From Desulfotomaculum nigrificans DSM 574 (GTDB lineage Bacteria; Bacillota; Desulfotomaculia; Desulfotomaculales; Desulfotomaculaceae), in assembly GCF_000189755.2 (NCBI RefSeq), contig NZ_KI912183.1, positions 74,564 through 138,563 on the forward strand: a DNA stretch of 64,000 bases, given 5' to 3'. Shown piece by piece: positions 5,457 through 36,938 of the stretch. The notes under the pieces were generated by a model. The model was not told the DNA's origin and searched no databases. It saw nothing but the letters and a program-made list of their open reading frames with translations. The translations under genes were made by a program, and so were the position numbers. Every line of letters starts with the position of its first letter. The first letter of the stretch is position 1.

Positions 5457-6572
5457 ATGGAAAAAGTAAAAGCAGGTATTATTGGTGCTGGCAATGTCGG
5501 TAAAGTCCATGTGGAGGCTTTGCGCAGGCTGGGCAACGTAGAAATACTGGGGGTATCCGGCAGCAGTCAGAGAAGCGCCGAGGAGCGGGCACGGCAATTG
5601 GGAATTCCCCGGGTCTATCAAAACTACCAAGAAATGTTGGCAGATCCGGATATACAGGTGGTGCATAACTGTACGCCCAACCAACTCCATTATCAAATCA
5701 ACAGGGATGCCTTGTTGGCTGGTAAACATGTGCTATGTGAAAAACCCCTGACCGTAGAACCGGAGCAGGCCAGGGAACTGGTGGAACTGGCCGAGCAACG
5801 GAATTTGGTGCATGGTGTTATGTTCAACTACCGCATGTATCCCATGGTGCAGGAGGCCAGGTCGGCTATTCTGGGAGGAGATATTGGTCAAATTAACCTA
5901 GTGCACGGCAGTTATCTCCAGGATTGGCTTCTATACGACACCGACTACAATTGGCGGCTGGAGTCCGAACTGGGCGGATTATCTGGGGCTTTGGCTGATA
6001 TCGGGAGTCACTGGTGTGATCTGGCGGAATTTATGACCGGTTCAAGAATAGTTTCAGTTTTTGTGGATATGGATACCGTAGTGCCCGAAAGGACAGATCT
6101 CCAAGGGAGACGGCATCGGGTTAGGGTTGAGGATTATGCCACCGTTTTACTTCGCTTTGCCAACGGAGCCAGGGGGGTTTTTACTGTTTCCCAGGTTAGC
6201 CCGGGACATAAAAACAGGCTGAGGATTGAAGTAGACGGGGCTCGTGCCGCCCTGGCCTGGGATCAGGAGCAGCCGGAGCAATTATGGTTCGGGTACCGGT
6301 CAGAGGCTAACCGTATACTTTTAAAGGAACCGGCTAACCTCAGGGTAGGCAGTTCCTATGCCCACTACCCGGCGGGGCACATAGAAGGCTGGCCGGATGG
6401 GCTTAAAAATCTCTTGGCTGAGTTTTATCAGGCTGTCCGGCAGGAAAAGTTACCCTCAAATAACAGTCCAGGTTTTCCAACCTTTAAAGATGGGTACAGA
6501 TCGGTGGCAATTATTTCGGCAATGCTGGATAGTTACAGGACTGGCCAGTGGGTGAAAATAATTGTCGAATAA
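5457..6572 (+). CDS. Gfo/Idh/MocA-family oxidoreductase
   Basis: This is a 371-aa NAD(P)-dependent dehydrogenase. The N-terminal Rossmann fold has GIIGAGNVGKVH at residues 8-19, followed by the family signature CEKPLTV near residue 95 that provides the catalytic Lys. The C-terminal alpha/beta domain has ADIGSHWCDLAEF near 180, carrying the usual Asp/His pair. The start is supported by GGGGGAG at 5443-5449. It is about 30 residues longer than the iolG product nearby, with low apparent similarity, so it likely has a different substrate (for example another inositol isomer or a sugar acid). Neighbours suggest polyol catabolism; the exact reaction is not known. Confidence 0.85.
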   Translation: MEKVKAGIIGAGNVGKVHVEALRRLGNVEILGVSGSSQRSAEERARQLGIPRVYQNYQEMLADPDIQVVHNCTPNQLHYQINRDALLAGKHVLCEKPLTVEPEQARELVELAEQRNLVHGVMFNYRMYPMVQEARSAILGGDIGQINLVHGSYLQDWLLYDTDYNWRLESELGGLSGALADIGSHWCDLAEFMTGSRIVSVFVDMDTVVPERTDLQGRRHRVRVEDYATVLLRFANGARGVFTVSQVSPGHKNRLRIEVDGARAALAWDQEQPEQLWFGYRSEANRILLKEPANLRVGSSYAHYPAGHIEGWPDGLKNLLAEFYQAVRQEKLPSNNSPGFPTFKDGYRSVAIISAMLDSYRTGQWVKIIVE

Positions 6573-6648
6573 TGTACCGGATATTAAAAAGTAGTAATAA
6601 ACGGGTGAAAGAATTCAGTGTATTTTTGAAAAATTTTTTCAAAACGCA

Positions 6649-6677
6649 TTGACTGGAATTGAAAACGTTTGTATAAT
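6649..6677 (+). promoter_or_regulatory. Sigma-A promoter of iolG with embedded operator
   Basis: TTGACT (6649-6654), a 17-bp spacer and TATAAT (6672-6677) form a near-consensus vegetative promoter. The spacer itself contains the palindromic core GAAAACGTTT (6661-6670), so a bound repressor would exclude RNA polymerase. The same design recurs at 7818-7846. Confidence 0.88.
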
Positions 6678-6702
6678 TAACTTACTAGTTGAAAACGTTT
6701 AC
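6661..6702. promoter_or_regulatory. Double LacI-family operator upstream of iolG
   Basis: Two identical cores GAAAACGTTT occur at 6661-6670 and 6691-6700, 30 bp apart, i.e. about three helical turns, so two repressor dimers would sit on the same face of the DNA. The first is inside the promoter spacer and the second just after the expected transcription start. AACGTT-centred palindromes are typical of LacI-family repressors. Confidence 0.82.
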
Positions 6703-6718
6703 GGAGGGATAGGTTTTA

Positions 6719-7732
6719 ATGAAATTGGGATTGATAGGAGCGGGAAGAATAGGAAGGCTTCATGGTGAGGTTATAACTTACTATATACCCAATGCCGAAA
6801 TTAAAACAGTATCTGATGTTTTTATGAATGAGGGAATTAAGAATTGGGCCAACCATCTTGGGATTTCCAATATTACCACGGATTACAAAGAAATATTGAG
6901 TGATCCCGAAATCCAAGCAGTGTTAATTTGTTCTTCAACTGATACTCATGCTAAGTTCATTATTGAGGCAGCCAAGGCCGGAAAACATATCTTCTGTGAA
7001 AAGCCGATAGATTTTAATGTAGAGAAAATTAATGAAGCATTGAGAACTGTAAATGAGGCAGGAGTAAAGTTGCAAATTGGTTTCCAGAGACGATTTGATC
7101 ATAATTTTAAGAGAATGAAGGAGCTCATCGAGGAAGGAAAAATTGGTGATATTCATATTGTTAAAATTACTTCCAGGGATCCAGCTCCACCACCGGTTGA
7201 ATATATAAGGGTTTCCGGCGGTATTTTTCTTGACATGATGATCCATGATTTTGATATGGCCCGTTACTTGTCGGGAAGCGAAGTTGAAGAAGTTTATGCC
7301 CAGGGCAGTGTTTTGGTTGATCCTGCAATTGGTGAAGCCGGGGACATTGATACAGCCATAGTTACTCTAAAATTTAAGAATGGTGCACACGGAGTAATAG
7401 ATAACAGCAGGCAGGCCGTTTACGGTTATGACCAGAGGGTAGAAGTATTTGGTTCAAAAGGTTGTCTCACTGTTGAGAATGATTTTCCTAACTCGGTAGT
7501 CTTAAGTACTGCAGAAAATGTAGTCAGCGACAAACCGCACTATTTCTTCCTGGAAAGATATATGAACGCATATGTAGAGGAAATAAAGGCTTTTGTTAAT
7601 GCAATTGAAGAAGGAAAGGAAACTCCGGTAGTTGGTAATGATGGGTTACAACCTGTATTAATAGGTCTGGCCGCACAAAAATCCCTTAAGGAAGGAAGGC
7701 CTGTCAGAATCAAAGAAAAGTTTATTCTTTAG
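6719..7732 (+). CDS. iolG: Inositol 2-dehydrogenase-like oxidoreductase (Gfo/Idh/MocA family)
   Basis: This 337-aa NAD-dependent dehydrogenase has the Rossmann motif GLIGAGRIGRLH at residues 4-15, CEKPID near 98 and the IolG-type catalytic stretch GGIFLDMMIHDFDMARY near 165-182 with its Asp-x3-His pair. IolG oxidises myo-inositol to scyllo-inosose, the first step of inositol breakdown. ATG at 6719 follows GGAGGG at 6703-6708. It stands alone behind its own promoter with two operators. The next gene is the presumed LacI repressor, followed by homologues of the next three Thermotoga inositol-pathway enzymes, which supports the assignment. Other Gfo/Idh substrates remain possible. Confidence 0.82.
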   Translation: MKLGLIGAGRIGRLHGEVITYYIPNAEIKTVSDVFMNEGIKNWANHLGISNITTDYKEILSDPEIQAVLICSSTDTHAKFIIEAAKAGKHIFCEKPIDFNVEKINEALRTVNEAGVKLQIGFQRRFDHNFKRMKELIEEGKIGDIHIVKITSRDPAPPPVEYIRVSGGIFLDMMIHDFDMARYLSGSEVEEVYAQGSVLVDPAIGEAGDIDTAIVTLKFKNGAHGVIDNSRQAVYGYDQRVEVFGSKGCLTVENDFPNSVVLSTAENVVSDKPHYFFLERYMNAYVEEIKAFVNAIEEGKETPVVGNDGLQPVLIGLAAQKSLKEGRPVRIKEKFIL

Positions 7733-25253: not shown

Positions 25254-25282
25254 TTGACAAATAATTAGCCATTTGTTAAATT
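25254..25282 (+). promoter_or_regulatory. Probable sigma-A promoter of the hrcA operon
   Basis: TTGACA (25254-25259) with a 17-bp spacer to TAAATT (25277-25282). The expected start point then falls just at the CIRCE element. TATAAT at 25288-25293 is better as a -10 but has no -35 at the right distance. Confidence 0.55.
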
Positions 25283-25292
25283 TTTAATATAA

Positions 25293-25319
25293 TTAGCACT
25301 CGGCTAGATAGAGTGCTAA
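25293..25319. promoter_or_regulatory. CIRCE element (HrcA operator)
   Basis: TTAGCACTC (25293-25301), a 9-bp spacer and GAGTGCTAA (25311-25319) form a perfect consensus CIRCE inverted repeat, 36 bp before hrcA. HrcA binding here represses the heat-shock operon. It is the only copy seen in the window. Confidence 0.98.
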
Positions 25320-25355: not shown

Positions 25356-26399
25356 GTGAAAATGGATGAACGCAAGCAACGGATTCTGTTGGCCATCGTT
25401 AAAGACTATATCACCACTGCTGAACCGGTTGGTTCACGAACCATATCCAGAAAATATAAACTGGGCGTCAGCCCGGCTACCATTCGTAATGAGATGTCCG
25501 ACTTGGAAGAAATGGGCTTTATTGAGCAACCCCACACTTCCGCCGGACGAATTCCTTCCGACCTGGGCTATCGTTATTACGTGGATTGCTTAATGGAGCG
25601 GGAACAATTAACTCCTGAAGAGGAAGATACTATTATACAGGGTTATCAAAATAAGGTGCGGGATGTGGGCGAGGTAATCAACCGCACCGGTAGAATCTTA
25701 GCCAAGTTAACTAACTACACCGCCCTGGTACGACCACCCTGGGCGGCACAAAGTGCTTACAAACATATTCAGTTGATTCTAATGGCACCGGGCCAGGCTA
25801 TCTTGATTGTGGTCATGGATACCGGTACAGTGCAGCATCAGATGATGCCGGTACCCGAGAATATTACCCAGCAGGATTTGGATCAAATATCCGGCGTGTT
25901 AAACGCTAAACTGCAGGGCCGGACCATGGATAATATCAGGCTGACTTTAATTAAAGAGATATACTTTGAACTATCCAAACACCGTCATATTTTAGACTTG
26001 GCCTTAGATTTATTACAGGCCAGGTTAACTATGGCAAAAGAGGATAAAATATACCTGGATGGGGTATTTAATATCTTGGATCAGCCTGAGTTCCACAATG
26101 TAGAAAAAGTAAAGGTTTTGCTATCCCTGTTAGAGCAGGAAGATAAGCTGCGGGATTTGCTGGATCCACCGGGTAATAACACGGGTGTTACGGTACGGAT
26201 TGGTAACGAAAACCCGCAACAGGGGATGCAAAACTGCAGTATGGTAACTGCCACCTACCGGGTGGGGGACAGGATACTGGGCAGTATTGGTGTACTGGGG
26301 CCCACCCGTATGGAGTATGCCAAGGTGGTTACCGTGGTGGATTATATGACCAAACACCTTTCCCGCGTCTTAGAAAAAATGTTAAAGGGTCAGGTTTAA
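25356..26399 (+). CDS. hrcA: Heat-inducible transcription repressor HrcA
   Basis: This 347-aa repressor binds CIRCE and links heat-shock expression to chaperonin capacity. The N-terminal winged helix has the signature TTAEPVGSRTISRKYKLGVS and SPATIRNEMSDLEEMGFIEQ; a dimerisation/GAF-like domain follows, ending TKHLSRVLEKML. GTG at 25356 lies 9 bp after AGGAGGTG. First gene of a hrcA - chaperonin - grpE - dnaK unit. HrcA normally needs GroEL for activity; here the neighbouring chaperonin is of the thermosome type, so its co-chaperone may differ. Confidence 0.96.
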   Translation: MKMDERKQRILLAIVKDYITTAEPVGSRTISRKYKLGVSPATIRNEMSDLEEMGFIEQPHTSAGRIPSDLGYRYYVDCLMEREQLTPEEEDTIIQGYQNKVRDVGEVINRTGRILAKLTNYTALVRPPWAAQSAYKHIQLILMAPGQAILIVVMDTGTVQHQMMPVPENITQQDLDQISGVLNAKLQGRTMDNIRLTLIKEIYFELSKHRHILDLALDLLQARLTMAKEDKIYLDGVFNILDQPEFHNVEKVKVLLSLLEQEDKLRDLLDPPGNNTGVTVRIGNENPQQGMQNCSMVTATYRVGDRILGSIGVLGPTRMEYAKVVTVVDYMTKHLSRVLEKMLKGQV

Positions 26400-26421: not shown

Positions 26422-27987
26422 TTGAGTCTGAAGCAACAGGCCAGTCAGGGGGCCGAAGTTAATGAAAAGATGGCGGCACTGATGACCAATTCCAATGCGG
26501 TAAGAGCCATTGCCTCTGCCGTGCAGGGAACCTTGGGCCCCAAGGGCCTGGATACCATGCTGGTGGATAAATTTGGTGAGGTGGTCATCACCAATGATGG
26601 GGTGACCATCCTTACCATGATGGAGGCCAATCACCCGGCGGCTCGCCTGGTGATTAATATTGCCAAGGCCCAGCAAGAGGAAATTGGCGATGGCACCACC
26701 ACTGCCACTGTAATGGCAGGGGCCTTAGTCAGTGCCGGAGTAGAACAGGTGGCTAAAGGAGTGCCGGTGGCCCGGGTTATTGAGGGAATCAGGGCCGGGG
26801 TCCGGCGGGCACTGGAAGCCATTAAGGAACGGGCTGTTCATCTGGAAGATTTGCAACACCCCCGGGTACGCCAGGTGGCCCTGGTGGCCGGGCGGGAACA
26901 TCAGGATATTGCCGATTTAGTGGTGGAAGCGGCCTCATTAATTGGCAGGGAAAAACTTTTAGAACCTAACTTTAAACTGTCAGATACAGTGGTATCTGAA
27001 GAAGGTGCCGAAAACCAGGTGTTCATGGGCGTTATCATTAATAAAGAAACCATGAATAAACAAATGCCCCGGGTACTGGAGCAGGTCAAGGTTTTAGTCA
27101 TTGATGATGCCCTGGAACCGGAGGAAATTGAAGATGAGGCCCTGGGCACCGAATCGGGTTTTGCCCGTTACTTGGAACTGCAAAATCAGTTCCGGACCAA
27201 CATCCAAAAGATCATTGACCTCGGGGTGGGCCTGGTGCTGGTGGACCGGGGTGTAGATGACATCGCTGAAGAAATGCTTACCGATGCCGGTATCATGGTG
27301 GTGCAGCGGGTTTTAAATAAAGAACTGCGCCGGGCGGCGGAACACACCGGGGCCCGTGTAATTAAGCGCACCGGGTTAAGGAAGGATTTGGCTGAACTAC
27401 AGAAACATTTAGGCAGTGCTGATAAAGTGCTGGAGGACGAAAAACTGGAGCAGGTTTGGATACTGGGTGGACACGGCAAACCAATGGCTACTGTTTTAGT
27501 TGGTGCTGCCACCGAAGAGGTGGTGGGTGAGCGCGAGCGCATTGCCAGAGATGCCGCCAGTTCTGTGCAGGCGGCCATCAAAGGTGGTGTGGTACCCGGT
27601 GGCGGTGCTCTGGAACTGGCGGTTTCCCGGGAAGTGGAAAAGGTCCGGGAGAATATCCGGGGTATGGCCGCCTACGGGGTGGACTGCGTGGTGGAGGCGC
27701 TGCGCAGCCCAATGGCCCAAATTGTGGCCAATGCCGGGTTTAATCCTCTGGAAAAAATTGGCGACGTCCTGGCGGCCCAGGCTGAACAAAACAAGATTTC
27801 CCTGGGTATTGACTGCGACACCGGAGAAATTGTGGATATGCTGGAAATTGGCGTGCTTGACCCGGCCCTGGTAAAAATTCATGCTTTGAAGGCCGCCGGT
27901 GAGATAGCTGAAGCCATCCTGCGGATAGATACCATCATTAAGATGAAAGAATATAATAAACCTTCCGATGAAGGGGCAGAGCATTAA
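26422..27987 (+). CDS. Group III (archaeal-like, thermosome-type) chaperonin
   Basis: This 521-aa chaperonin is of the TCP-1/thermosome class, not bacterial GroEL. Nucleotide-binding motifs are TLGPKGLDTMLVD (about 38-50), TNDGVTIL (58-65) and EIGDGTTTATVMAGAL (87-102); later come VVPGGGALE near 392 and an ARDAASSVQAAIKGG segment. There is no adjacent groES, and the C-terminus lacks the GGM tail of GroEL, as expected if a built-in lid replaces GroES. TTG at 26422 lies 9 bp after AGGAGG. Such genes inside dnaK operons are known from Carboxydothermus and other Firmicutes. It would fold client proteins in the cytoplasm in response to heat shock. Confidence 0.93.
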   Translation: MSLKQQASQGAEVNEKMAALMTNSNAVRAIASAVQGTLGPKGLDTMLVDKFGEVVITNDGVTILTMMEANHPAARLVINIAKAQQEEIGDGTTTATVMAGALVSAGVEQVAKGVPVARVIEGIRAGVRRALEAIKERAVHLEDLQHPRVRQVALVAGREHQDIADLVVEAASLIGREKLLEPNFKLSDTVVSEEGAENQVFMGVIINKETMNKQMPRVLEQVKVLVIDDALEPEEIEDEALGTESGFARYLELQNQFRTNIQKIIDLGVGLVLVDRGVDDIAEEMLTDAGIMVVQRVLNKELRRAAEHTGARVIKRTGLRKDLAELQKHLGSADKVLEDEKLEQVWILGGHGKPMATVLVGAATEEVVGERERIARDAASSVQAAIKGGVVPGGGALELAVSREVEKVRENIRGMAAYGVDCVVEALRSPMAQIVANAGFNPLEKIGDVLAAQAEQNKISLGIDCDTGEIVDMLEIGVLDPALVKIHALKAAGEIAEAILRIDTIIKMKEYNKPSDEGAEH

Positions 27988-28066: not shown

Positions 28067-28672
28067 ATGACTGAAGAAAAAAAGGTGGAACAGCAGGAAG
28101 AAGCGGCTGCTGCTGAAGCCAACCTCATAAATGAACAGGCAACAAATGAGCAAGTGGATAAAACAGAGGAGATTCCCGAGGCTGAGCAGCAAACAGACGA
28201 AGAAATTGACGACCCGGCTGAATTAAAGCGACTGCTGGCCGAAAAGACGGCTGAAGCGGAGAATAATTTTAACCGGGCCCTGAGACTGCAGGCTGATTAT
28301 GAAAACCTGCGGCGCCGGACTCGCCAGGAGCGGGAGGAGCTCTTAAAATTCGGGGCTGAACAGTTAATTACCGCACTGCTGCCGGTACTGGATAACTTTG
28401 AACGGGCACTGGCCTCAGCCGGTAACGGCGGGGAAAAATTTGTCAGTGGGGTGGAAATGATTAGCCGCCAGCTGAACGAAGTGCTACAAAACGAAGGATT
28501 AACCCCCATTCCGGCTGTCGGGGAACAATTTGACCCCAACATACATGAGGCCGTAATGCAGGTGGAAGATACCGGAGAGCCTGAAAATACAGTGGTGGAG
28601 GAACTCAGAAAAGGCTACTACCTAAAAGGCAAGGTTATCCGGCCCGCTATGGTTAAAGTGGCTAAATCTTAA
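28067..28672 (+). CDS. grpE: Nucleotide exchange factor GrpE
   Basis: This 201-aa protein releases ADP from DnaK. It has a long acidic N-terminal tail (about residues 1-60, Glu/Gln rich), a coiled-coil dimerisation helix with RALRLQADYENLRRRTRQER, and the C-terminal beta domain with NEGLTPIPAVGEQFDPNIHE and KGKVIRPAMVKVAK. ATG follows AAGAGGTG. It lies between the chaperonin gene and dnaK in the HrcA-controlled operon. Confidence 0.95.
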   Translation: MTEEKKVEQQEEAAAAEANLINEQATNEQVDKTEEIPEAEQQTDEEIDDPAELKRLLAEKTAEAENNFNRALRLQADYENLRRRTRQEREELLKFGAEQLITALLPVLDNFERALASAGNGGEKFVSGVEMISRQLNEVLQNEGLTPIPAVGEQFDPNIHEAVMQVEDTGEPENTVVEELRKGYYLKGKVIRPAMVKVAKS

Positions 28673-28708: not shown

Positions 28709-30568
<1,860 letters not shown>

Positions 30569-30712: not shown

Positions 30713-31858
30713 ATGGCTAAGCGGGACTATTATGAGGTGCTGGGTGTCTCCCGGGACGCCTCGCCGGATGAGATAAAGAAAGCCTACCGGAAGCTGGCCC
30801 GCCAGTACCACCCGGATGCTAACCCCGACAATAAAGAAGCAGCCGAAGCTAAATTTAAGGAAATAGCTGAGGCGTACGCTGTTTTAAGTGACCCGGAAAA
30901 ACGGGCGGCCTATGACCAGTTTGGTCACGCCGCCACCGATGGTCAGGGCTTTGGCGGCTTCGGCGGTTTTGGTGGTTTTGACGGCGGTGGCTTCGGTGAC
31001 TTTGGTGGTTTGGGCGACATTTTTGACATGTTCTTTGGTGGCATGGGTGGTCGCCAGCGCACCGGACCCCAAAAGGGTAATGACCTGCGGGTTAATATGG
31101 AAATCTCCTTCAAGGAAGCAGCCTTTGGGGTGGAACGGGATATTCAAGTGCCCCGGGTGGAAACCTGCGATGTCTGTGGCGGCAGTGGCTCTGCCCCCGG
31201 CAGCAGGCCCAAAACCTGTGATATGTGTCATGGTACAGGCCAGGTTCAGTACGCCCAAAACACACCCTTTGGCCGGATTGTGCAAAGCCGCACCTGTGAC
31301 AAGTGCCGCGGCAGCGGGAAGATCATTGAACGGCCTTGCCCTAACTGCCGGGGTGCTGGCCAGGTCAAAAAAACCAGGTCTATTCATGTTAAAATACCGG
31401 CCGGGGTGGATGAAGGTTCCCGCCTGCGCTTAAGCGGCGAGGGCGAAGCAGGGTTAAGGGGTGGCCCGCCGGGTGACCTGTACATTTATATTACTGTCCG
31501 GCCGCATAAGTTCTTCGTACGGGAAGGTAATGACATCATCTGTGAGGTGGATCTCAGCTTTGCCCAGGCCGCCCTGGGAGCTACCATAGAAGTACCGACT
31601 CTGGAGGGCACAGCCGAACTGAAAATTCCTGAGGGAACCCAAACCGGCACTATCTTCCGCATGCGCGGCAAGGGTATTCCCTATTTGAACGGCAGTGGGC
31701 GTGGCGACCAACATGTGCGGGTGAAAGTGGTTACACCCACCAAGTTGACCGAAAGACAAAGGGAATTATTAAAGGAATTTGCCAAAATATCCGGAGAAAA
31801 AACTCATGGAAGCGGAAAAAATATCTTCGAGAAAATGAAAGATGCTTTTATGGGGTAA
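30713..31858 (+). CDS. dnaJ: Chaperone protein DnaJ (Hsp40)
   Basis: This 381-aa co-chaperone stimulates DnaK ATPase. The J domain has YHPDAN with the HPD triad near 33-35. A Gly/Phe-rich region (about 75-110) follows, then a zinc domain with all four CXXCXGXG repeats ([32 protein letters not shown]), and finally the C-terminal substrate-binding and dimerisation domains. ATG follows AAGGTGG. It is separated from dnaK by a 144-bp gap containing a perfect hairpin, so it may have extra control. Confidence 0.97.

Positions 31859-35852: not shown

Positions 35853-36938
<1,086 letters not shown>

Follow-up and report, generated by a model that had tools for sequence, protein, structure and literature searches.

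The gene between hrcA and grpE in the 64,000-nucleotide stretch of Desulfotomaculum nigrificans DSM 574 analysed here (hereafter, the window) encodes a group III chaperonin, as tree, predicted structure and diagnostic residues agree. We read it as an ordinary member of this group that is co-transcribed under the control of HrcA and CIRCE and provides an accessory folding chamber beside canonical GroESL, a reading to which we assign a probability of roughly 0.88. Nothing supports the replacement of GroEL by the group III chaperonin as the partner of HrcA, and the comparison of genomes speaks against it. The arrangement of hrcA and chaperonin is not rare. The features of the operon are as follows:

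25254..25293, + strand: putative sigma-70-like promoter or promoters before CIRCE (TTGACA-N17-TAAATT and TAGCCA-N16-TATAAT, from a consensus scan)
25293..25319, + strand: CIRCE operator, a perfect inverted repeat (TTAGCACTC-N9-GAGTGCTAA), 36 nt before hrcA
25356..26399, + strand: hrcA, heat-inducible transcriptional repressor (TIGR00331, 369 bits, cut-off 197)
26422..27987, + strand: group III chaperonin (bacterial thermosome-like), separated from hrcA by 22 nt and from grpE by 79 nt
28067..28672, + strand: grpE (NF010738, 178 bits, cut-off 137)
28733..30568, + strand: dnaK (NF001413, 1002 bits, cut-off 648)
30713..31858, + strand: dnaJ (NF008035, 501 bits, cut-off 338)

The gene order places the chaperonin in the dnaK operon, and with hrcA and CIRCE ahead of that operon it is a predicted member of the HrcA/CIRCE regulon. 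Both a perfect CIRCE and the position between hrcA and grpE had been proposed in the sequence-only reading; the former is confirmed, at an expectation of 0.01 matches per shuffled window even when up to three mismatches are allowed, and the latter by the HrcA (369 bits) and GrpE (178 bits) family matches. The promoter evidence is weak and near chance, as the scan of the region returned six sites against a mean of 3.7 in shuffled sequences. Family models were applied to hrcA, grpE, dnaK and dnaJ; other neighbouring genes we take to be hemW, lepA, prmA and rsmE, and an open frame downstream of the operon region (35853-36899, minus strand) presumably encodes a transposase of the IS30 type, which it resembles.

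The chaperonin ORF (26422-27987, plus strand) starts with a TTG codon preceded by AGGAGG and encodes 521 amino acids. The best thermosome model scored 313 bits (curated cut-off 450) and the best GroEL model, NF009487, 191 bits (curated cut-off 352); scores below both curated cut-offs are what is expected of a third group. By sequence, the nearest solved chains are 9rwq, an ancestral group III chaperonin (713 bits), 5x9u, the group III chaperonin of Carboxydothermus hydrogenoformans (513 bits), and then 9rwp, an ancestral group II chaperonin (311 bits). The sequence file of 9rwq carries the molecule name ACII, and the entry title and the relevant passages of PMC12696368 describe it as ancestral group III. 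In a phylogeny built from 46 proteins, the 34 rows of group III split off with support 99, and groups I (6 rows) and II (6 rows, all haloarchaeal) formed branches with support 100 and 99, respectively. The phylogeny against groups I and II that had been suggested as a check thus places the window chaperonin with group III, outside both other groups and not inside group I; nor does a groES gene adjoin it. Its closest relatives in this tree come from Desulforamulus, Desulfofundulus and Pelotomaculum, and among the matches listed (the best 80 of 581 loci) it is 83% identical to the Desulforamulus aeronauticus protein.

The AlphaFold2 model of the chaperonin (pLDDT 89, pTM 0.83) had as its top PDB matches the closed and open group III structures 5x9v and 5x9u, with TM scores of 0.92 and 0.93 by target length and 49% identity in the structural alignment. 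These structures are of Ch-CPN from C. hydrogenoformans, with which the window chaperonin, although from a different genus, shares the fold, the lid, the catalytic Asp/Arg/Asp and the absence of the nucleotide-sensing loop (PMC5635000). Of the residues that An 2017 describes for Ch-CPN, the catalytic D59, R158 and D377 are kept together with GDGTTT, as are L241, F247, Y250 and F257 of the lid; R158, the arginine at the gamma-phosphate, does not vary in two alignments, one of 26 and one of 27 rows. The model contains a helix at 244-266 that corresponds to the built-in lid. Compared with ancestral group II, the loop between alpha6 and alpha7 is six residues shorter (alignment gaps of 2, 3 and 1), and this is the deletion to be expected where the nucleotide-sensing loop is absent. 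The group III or thermosome-type identity claimed at the outset is therefore borne out by the tree, the model matches and the diagnostic residues. Homology and prediction show the fold, the lid and the catalytic residues, and GroES-free assembly of a hexadecameric double ring and client folding may be expected by analogy with the C. hydrogenoformans protein.

The source genome consists of one contig of 3.05 Mb and is 99.95% complete. It contains a single groES and a single classical groEL, located at 2.779 Mb, with a second perfect CIRCE of their own in front, so that the genome has two chaperonin systems with the same type of operator. The claim that the chaperonin has no GroES partner holds locally but fails genome-wide, as the recommended search for groESL finds an ordinary copy behind its own perfect CIRCE. 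All nine genomes of the genus have a CIRCE before groES. A third CIRCE of the source genome, with one mismatch, lies outside the window (L006:1501-1527, corresponding to G000:C1:1506861-1506887). It follows TTGACA-N18-TAGTAT at a distance of a few bases and precedes a minus-strand ORF of family GH130 (mannoside phosphorylase family, 189 bits) by 37 nt. This suggests that HrcA may also control a gene for a glycoside phosphorylase in the species. Among the eight further genomes of the genus, a third site with at most one mismatch occurs only in G203, about 0.4 kb from an Hsp20 gene.

With the window protein as query (E <= 1e-80), a sample of 398 genomes from the phylum yielded at least 127 with the chaperonin gene, so that its earlier attribution to a few Firmicutes was an understatement. 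The number is a lower bound, as genome G192, counted as negative, bears a chaperonin copy shortened at a contig end. GroES was found in 125 of these 127 genomes and HrcA in all of them; two or more perfect CIRCEs were present in 121 of the 127 and in 210 of the 271 others, counts that ignore relatedness. Setting the window genome aside, 126 group III genomes remain, and we read the neighbourhood in 100 of them, with gap lengths taken between stop-to-stop frames and not between start codons. The next recognised gene upstream was hrcA in 99 of these loci, within 300 nt in 98; in the exception, L141, the chaperonin frame is split and a further chaperonin fragment lies between it and hrcA. The hundredth locus starts at a contig break. 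A CIRCE near the hrcA start was perfect in 96 relatives, had one mismatch in one and was absent from three, all cut by contig ends. Downstream, grpE followed the chaperonin within 300 nt in 97 of 100 loci (exceptions: L069, L077 and L138).

A similar picture emerged from named public genomes, for which the best 80 of 581 loci were considered. In this set hrcA lay within 150 nt upstream in 75 loci, by the same stop-to-stop measure; L167, L211 and L236 are cut by contig ends, and in L193 open frames lie between hrcA and the chaperonin. A perfect CIRCE near the hrcA start was found in 69 of the 80, and a one-mismatch version in two more. The loci include Paenibacillus, Aneurinibacillus and Thermoactinomyces. 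Three of the best 80 of 581 (L201, L211 and L236) are contigs of metagenome-assembled genomes labelled Armatimonadetes that carry a group III chaperonin. L201 has the order hrcA-chaperonin-grpE-dnaK-dnaJ with no CIRCE within three mismatches; the absence from L211 and L236 is uninformative because both contigs are cut before hrcA. In L183 the chaperonin (5968-7548) is near neither hrcA nor dnaK and follows open frames that we take to be murI and an RNase PH gene. In L137 (G015) and L138 (G341), both from single-contig genomes, the chaperonin gene is in two frames, which reflects either sequencing errors or decaying genes; L138 has no separate grpE call, and an open frame of 835 residues there contains dnaK.

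Two other origins of the window gene were weighed and are both exceedingly improbable. That the gene is a divergent GroEL paralogue of group I with a retained groESL-like role would be in line with its match to GroEL family models (NF009487 at best, 191 bits), but the thermosome model scores higher (313 bits), the protein falls outside the group I branch with its support of 100, the model has a predicted lid helix, and a separate groEL is present in the genome. A recent transfer from an archaeon into the operon would in turn account for its being closer to archaeal thermosomes than to GroEL, and the published views include that of an ancient transfer into Firmicutes (PMC12696368, in the passages concerned). 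Against a recent event, however, its closest relatives in the tree are those of Desulforamulus, Desulfofundulus and Pelotomaculum, the same syntenic place is held across dozens of families, and identity to the haloarchaeal thermosomes listed is about 27-33%.

A further alternative concerns regulation. The sequence-only reading had asked whether HrcA is tuned here by a GroES-independent chaperonin; in this case the group III chaperonin, and not or not only GroEL, would activate HrcA, and the operon would sense the load of its own product rather than that of GroEL. We regard this as unlikely. In its favour, 99 of 100 loci have hrcA as the nearest recognised upstream gene, the distance is no more than 150 nt in 75 of the 80 named loci (best 80 of 581), the two genes remain neighbours where grpE and dnaK have left, HrcA occurs in 127 of 127 group III genomes, and binding of HrcA to DNA is raised by GroESL in Campylobacter (PMC8533110, which in the passages concerned also cites the same for Bacillus subtilis and Chlamydia). 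Yet GroES coexists with the chaperonin in 125 of 127 group III genomes, the two absences both being in incomplete assemblies, and L183 has the chaperonin away from both hrcA and dnaK. Furthermore, HrcA persists without the chaperonin gene, as 265 of the 271 genomes scored negative have it (G192, a false negative, is among the 271), and grpE comes after hrcA in 42 of the 44 loci picked as group III-negative. The two exceptions are G192, which has the chaperonin gene, and G175, from which grpE and dnaK are gone too.

A phylogeny of 140 HrcA proteins (97 with and 43 without a chaperonin neighbour) points in the same direction, as it requires at least 16 changes in chaperonin status, six of which are forced by well-supported branches. 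The tree comprises 140 of 143 rows; L304, where the shortened chaperonin that makes G192 a false negative is located, and two rows of short coverage were left out. The repeated changes fit an accessory gene that was repeatedly lost, or gained, at one site while HrcA and CIRCE continued. The comparison thus gives the proposed tuning no support, given the coexisting GroES, the CIRCE before groES throughout the genus and the retention of HrcA and CIRCE in relatives without the chaperonin; what would speak for it is the tight linkage of hrcA and chaperonin. We likewise consider it improbable that this linkage marks a conserved functional pair in which HrcA would be folded or kept active by its neighbour, two load signals (GroEL and group III) would meet at one operator, and dnaK would be the dispensable neighbour, a reading suggested by lineages where grpE-dnaK departed and CIRCE-hrcA-chaperonin-dnaJ remained. 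In the titles and abstract openings of the literature covered, with most subscription journals outside that scope, we found no test of HrcA against a group III chaperonin.

None of the 127 group III genomes was shown to lack GroEL. The best candidate was G320 (94% complete, about 210 contigs), which has no GroES and whose sole Cpn60-family match is the group III member, but an assembly gap is the best reading: its guaA contig stops at the first guaA codons, on the side where the relative G274 has groESL, and of its two perfect CIRCEs only the one at hrcA was located. The other group III genome without GroES, G260, is 63% complete. Two further genomes, G350 (97% complete) and G362 (92%), have HrcA and CIRCE with neither a Cpn60 family match nor GroES; the explanation is either a gap in the assembly or a bacterium that has no chaperonin.

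In at least seven loci (L069, L077, L176, L178, L180, L185 and L186) grpE and dnaK are missing between chaperonin and dnaJ. There, dnaJ starts at most 320 nt from the chaperonin, and hrcA, chaperonin and dnaJ stay together behind a CIRCE, which is perfect in five and has one mismatch in L180 and L185. A full-length dnaK followed by grpE was found elsewhere in six of the seven genomes and not found in that of L178; no CIRCE was detected around the displaced dnaK in the stretches read (up to three mismatches in L240 and L241, up to four in L243-L246). In a chaperonin tree of 160 rows, the seven loci fall inside a clade of 12 rows with at least three changes, two of them forced by starred branches; this tree was built with no mixture model and carries a long-branch warning. 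L190 was labelled intact in it, although its hrcA-chaperonin pair has no grpE in the 1.2 kb remaining on the contig; its perfect CIRCE lies downstream of the chaperonin rather than before hrcA. The departures of grpE and dnaK probably represent one to three events, with one early loss followed by later returns as the alternative to separate losses. By position, the link to hrcA and dnaJ appears more durable than the dnaK link stressed in the literature, and a dedicated link between chaperonin and DnaK is weakened, as the seven loci keep hrcA-chaperonin-dnaJ while grpE and dnaK are gone. The departure need not involve the chaperonin, as in G175 both genes are gone and the chaperonin is absent.

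Control of the displaced dnaK by HspR was considered and rejected, as no HAIR-like site (up to three mismatches to the consensus) was found before dnaK in seven loci, namely the six with a displaced dnaK and, from G350, the second locus of this gene; the scan also included L008 with groESL. The single near-match falls within another open frame, in L240, and 0.4 are expected per 10 kb. An HspR-like gene adjoins dnaK-grpE only in L245 and L246 (67.9 and 82.2 bits, under the curated cut-off of 105).

GroEL/GroES is, like group III, an ATP-driven folding ring, and GroEL needs GroES. In the source genome this group I system also stands behind CIRCE, and its clade is separate from that of the window chaperonin. 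The archaeal thermosome (group II) has a built-in lid and fold in common with the window chaperonin, which nonetheless belongs to a separate clade, lacks the nucleotide-sensing loop and is encoded within the Hsp70 operon of a bacterium. Both the family and its location next to these genes were already known: An 2017 (PMC5635000) places group III genes in the DnaK operon with one exception, and the review PMC5904260, citing Techtmann & Robb 2010, has both chaperonin types regulated by HrcA in Firmicutes. From the Firmicutes group III systems with hrcA and groESL that the cited part of this review describes, we found no difference; a wider spread is documented here. The partnership with DnaK put forward in PMC5635000 and PMC5220055 rests, in the passages concerned, on the shared operon, and the latter (2017) calls the working relation of groups I and III within one cell not yet characterised.

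In the model that we propose, one HrcA-repressed promoter at CIRCE would most likely yield a transcript of hrcA, chaperonin, grpE, dnaK and dnaJ, and heat would inactivate HrcA so that the whole set rises together. Canonical GroESL, with its own CIRCE in the same cell, would be the chaperonin most likely to keep HrcA active, as is published for other bacteria. The group III chaperonin, an ATPase of thermosome type whose built-in lid would close the ring without GroES, would act as an accessory folding chamber whose clients are probably handed over by the DnaJ/DnaK system. Read most simply, HrcA would co-repress hrcA-chaperonin-grpE-dnaK-dnaJ and, as a second unit apart from it, groESL.

The window chaperonin is an ordinary case: its family and its location in the operon are both published, and it probably works beside the GroEL system. 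The value of the analysis lies in having counted how often and how constantly the hrcA-chaperonin arrangement occurs, and in a set of natural rearrangements in which chaperonin and dnaK are apart. Should the neighbouring chaperonin after all tune HrcA, it would constitute a second chaperonin-based heat sensor.
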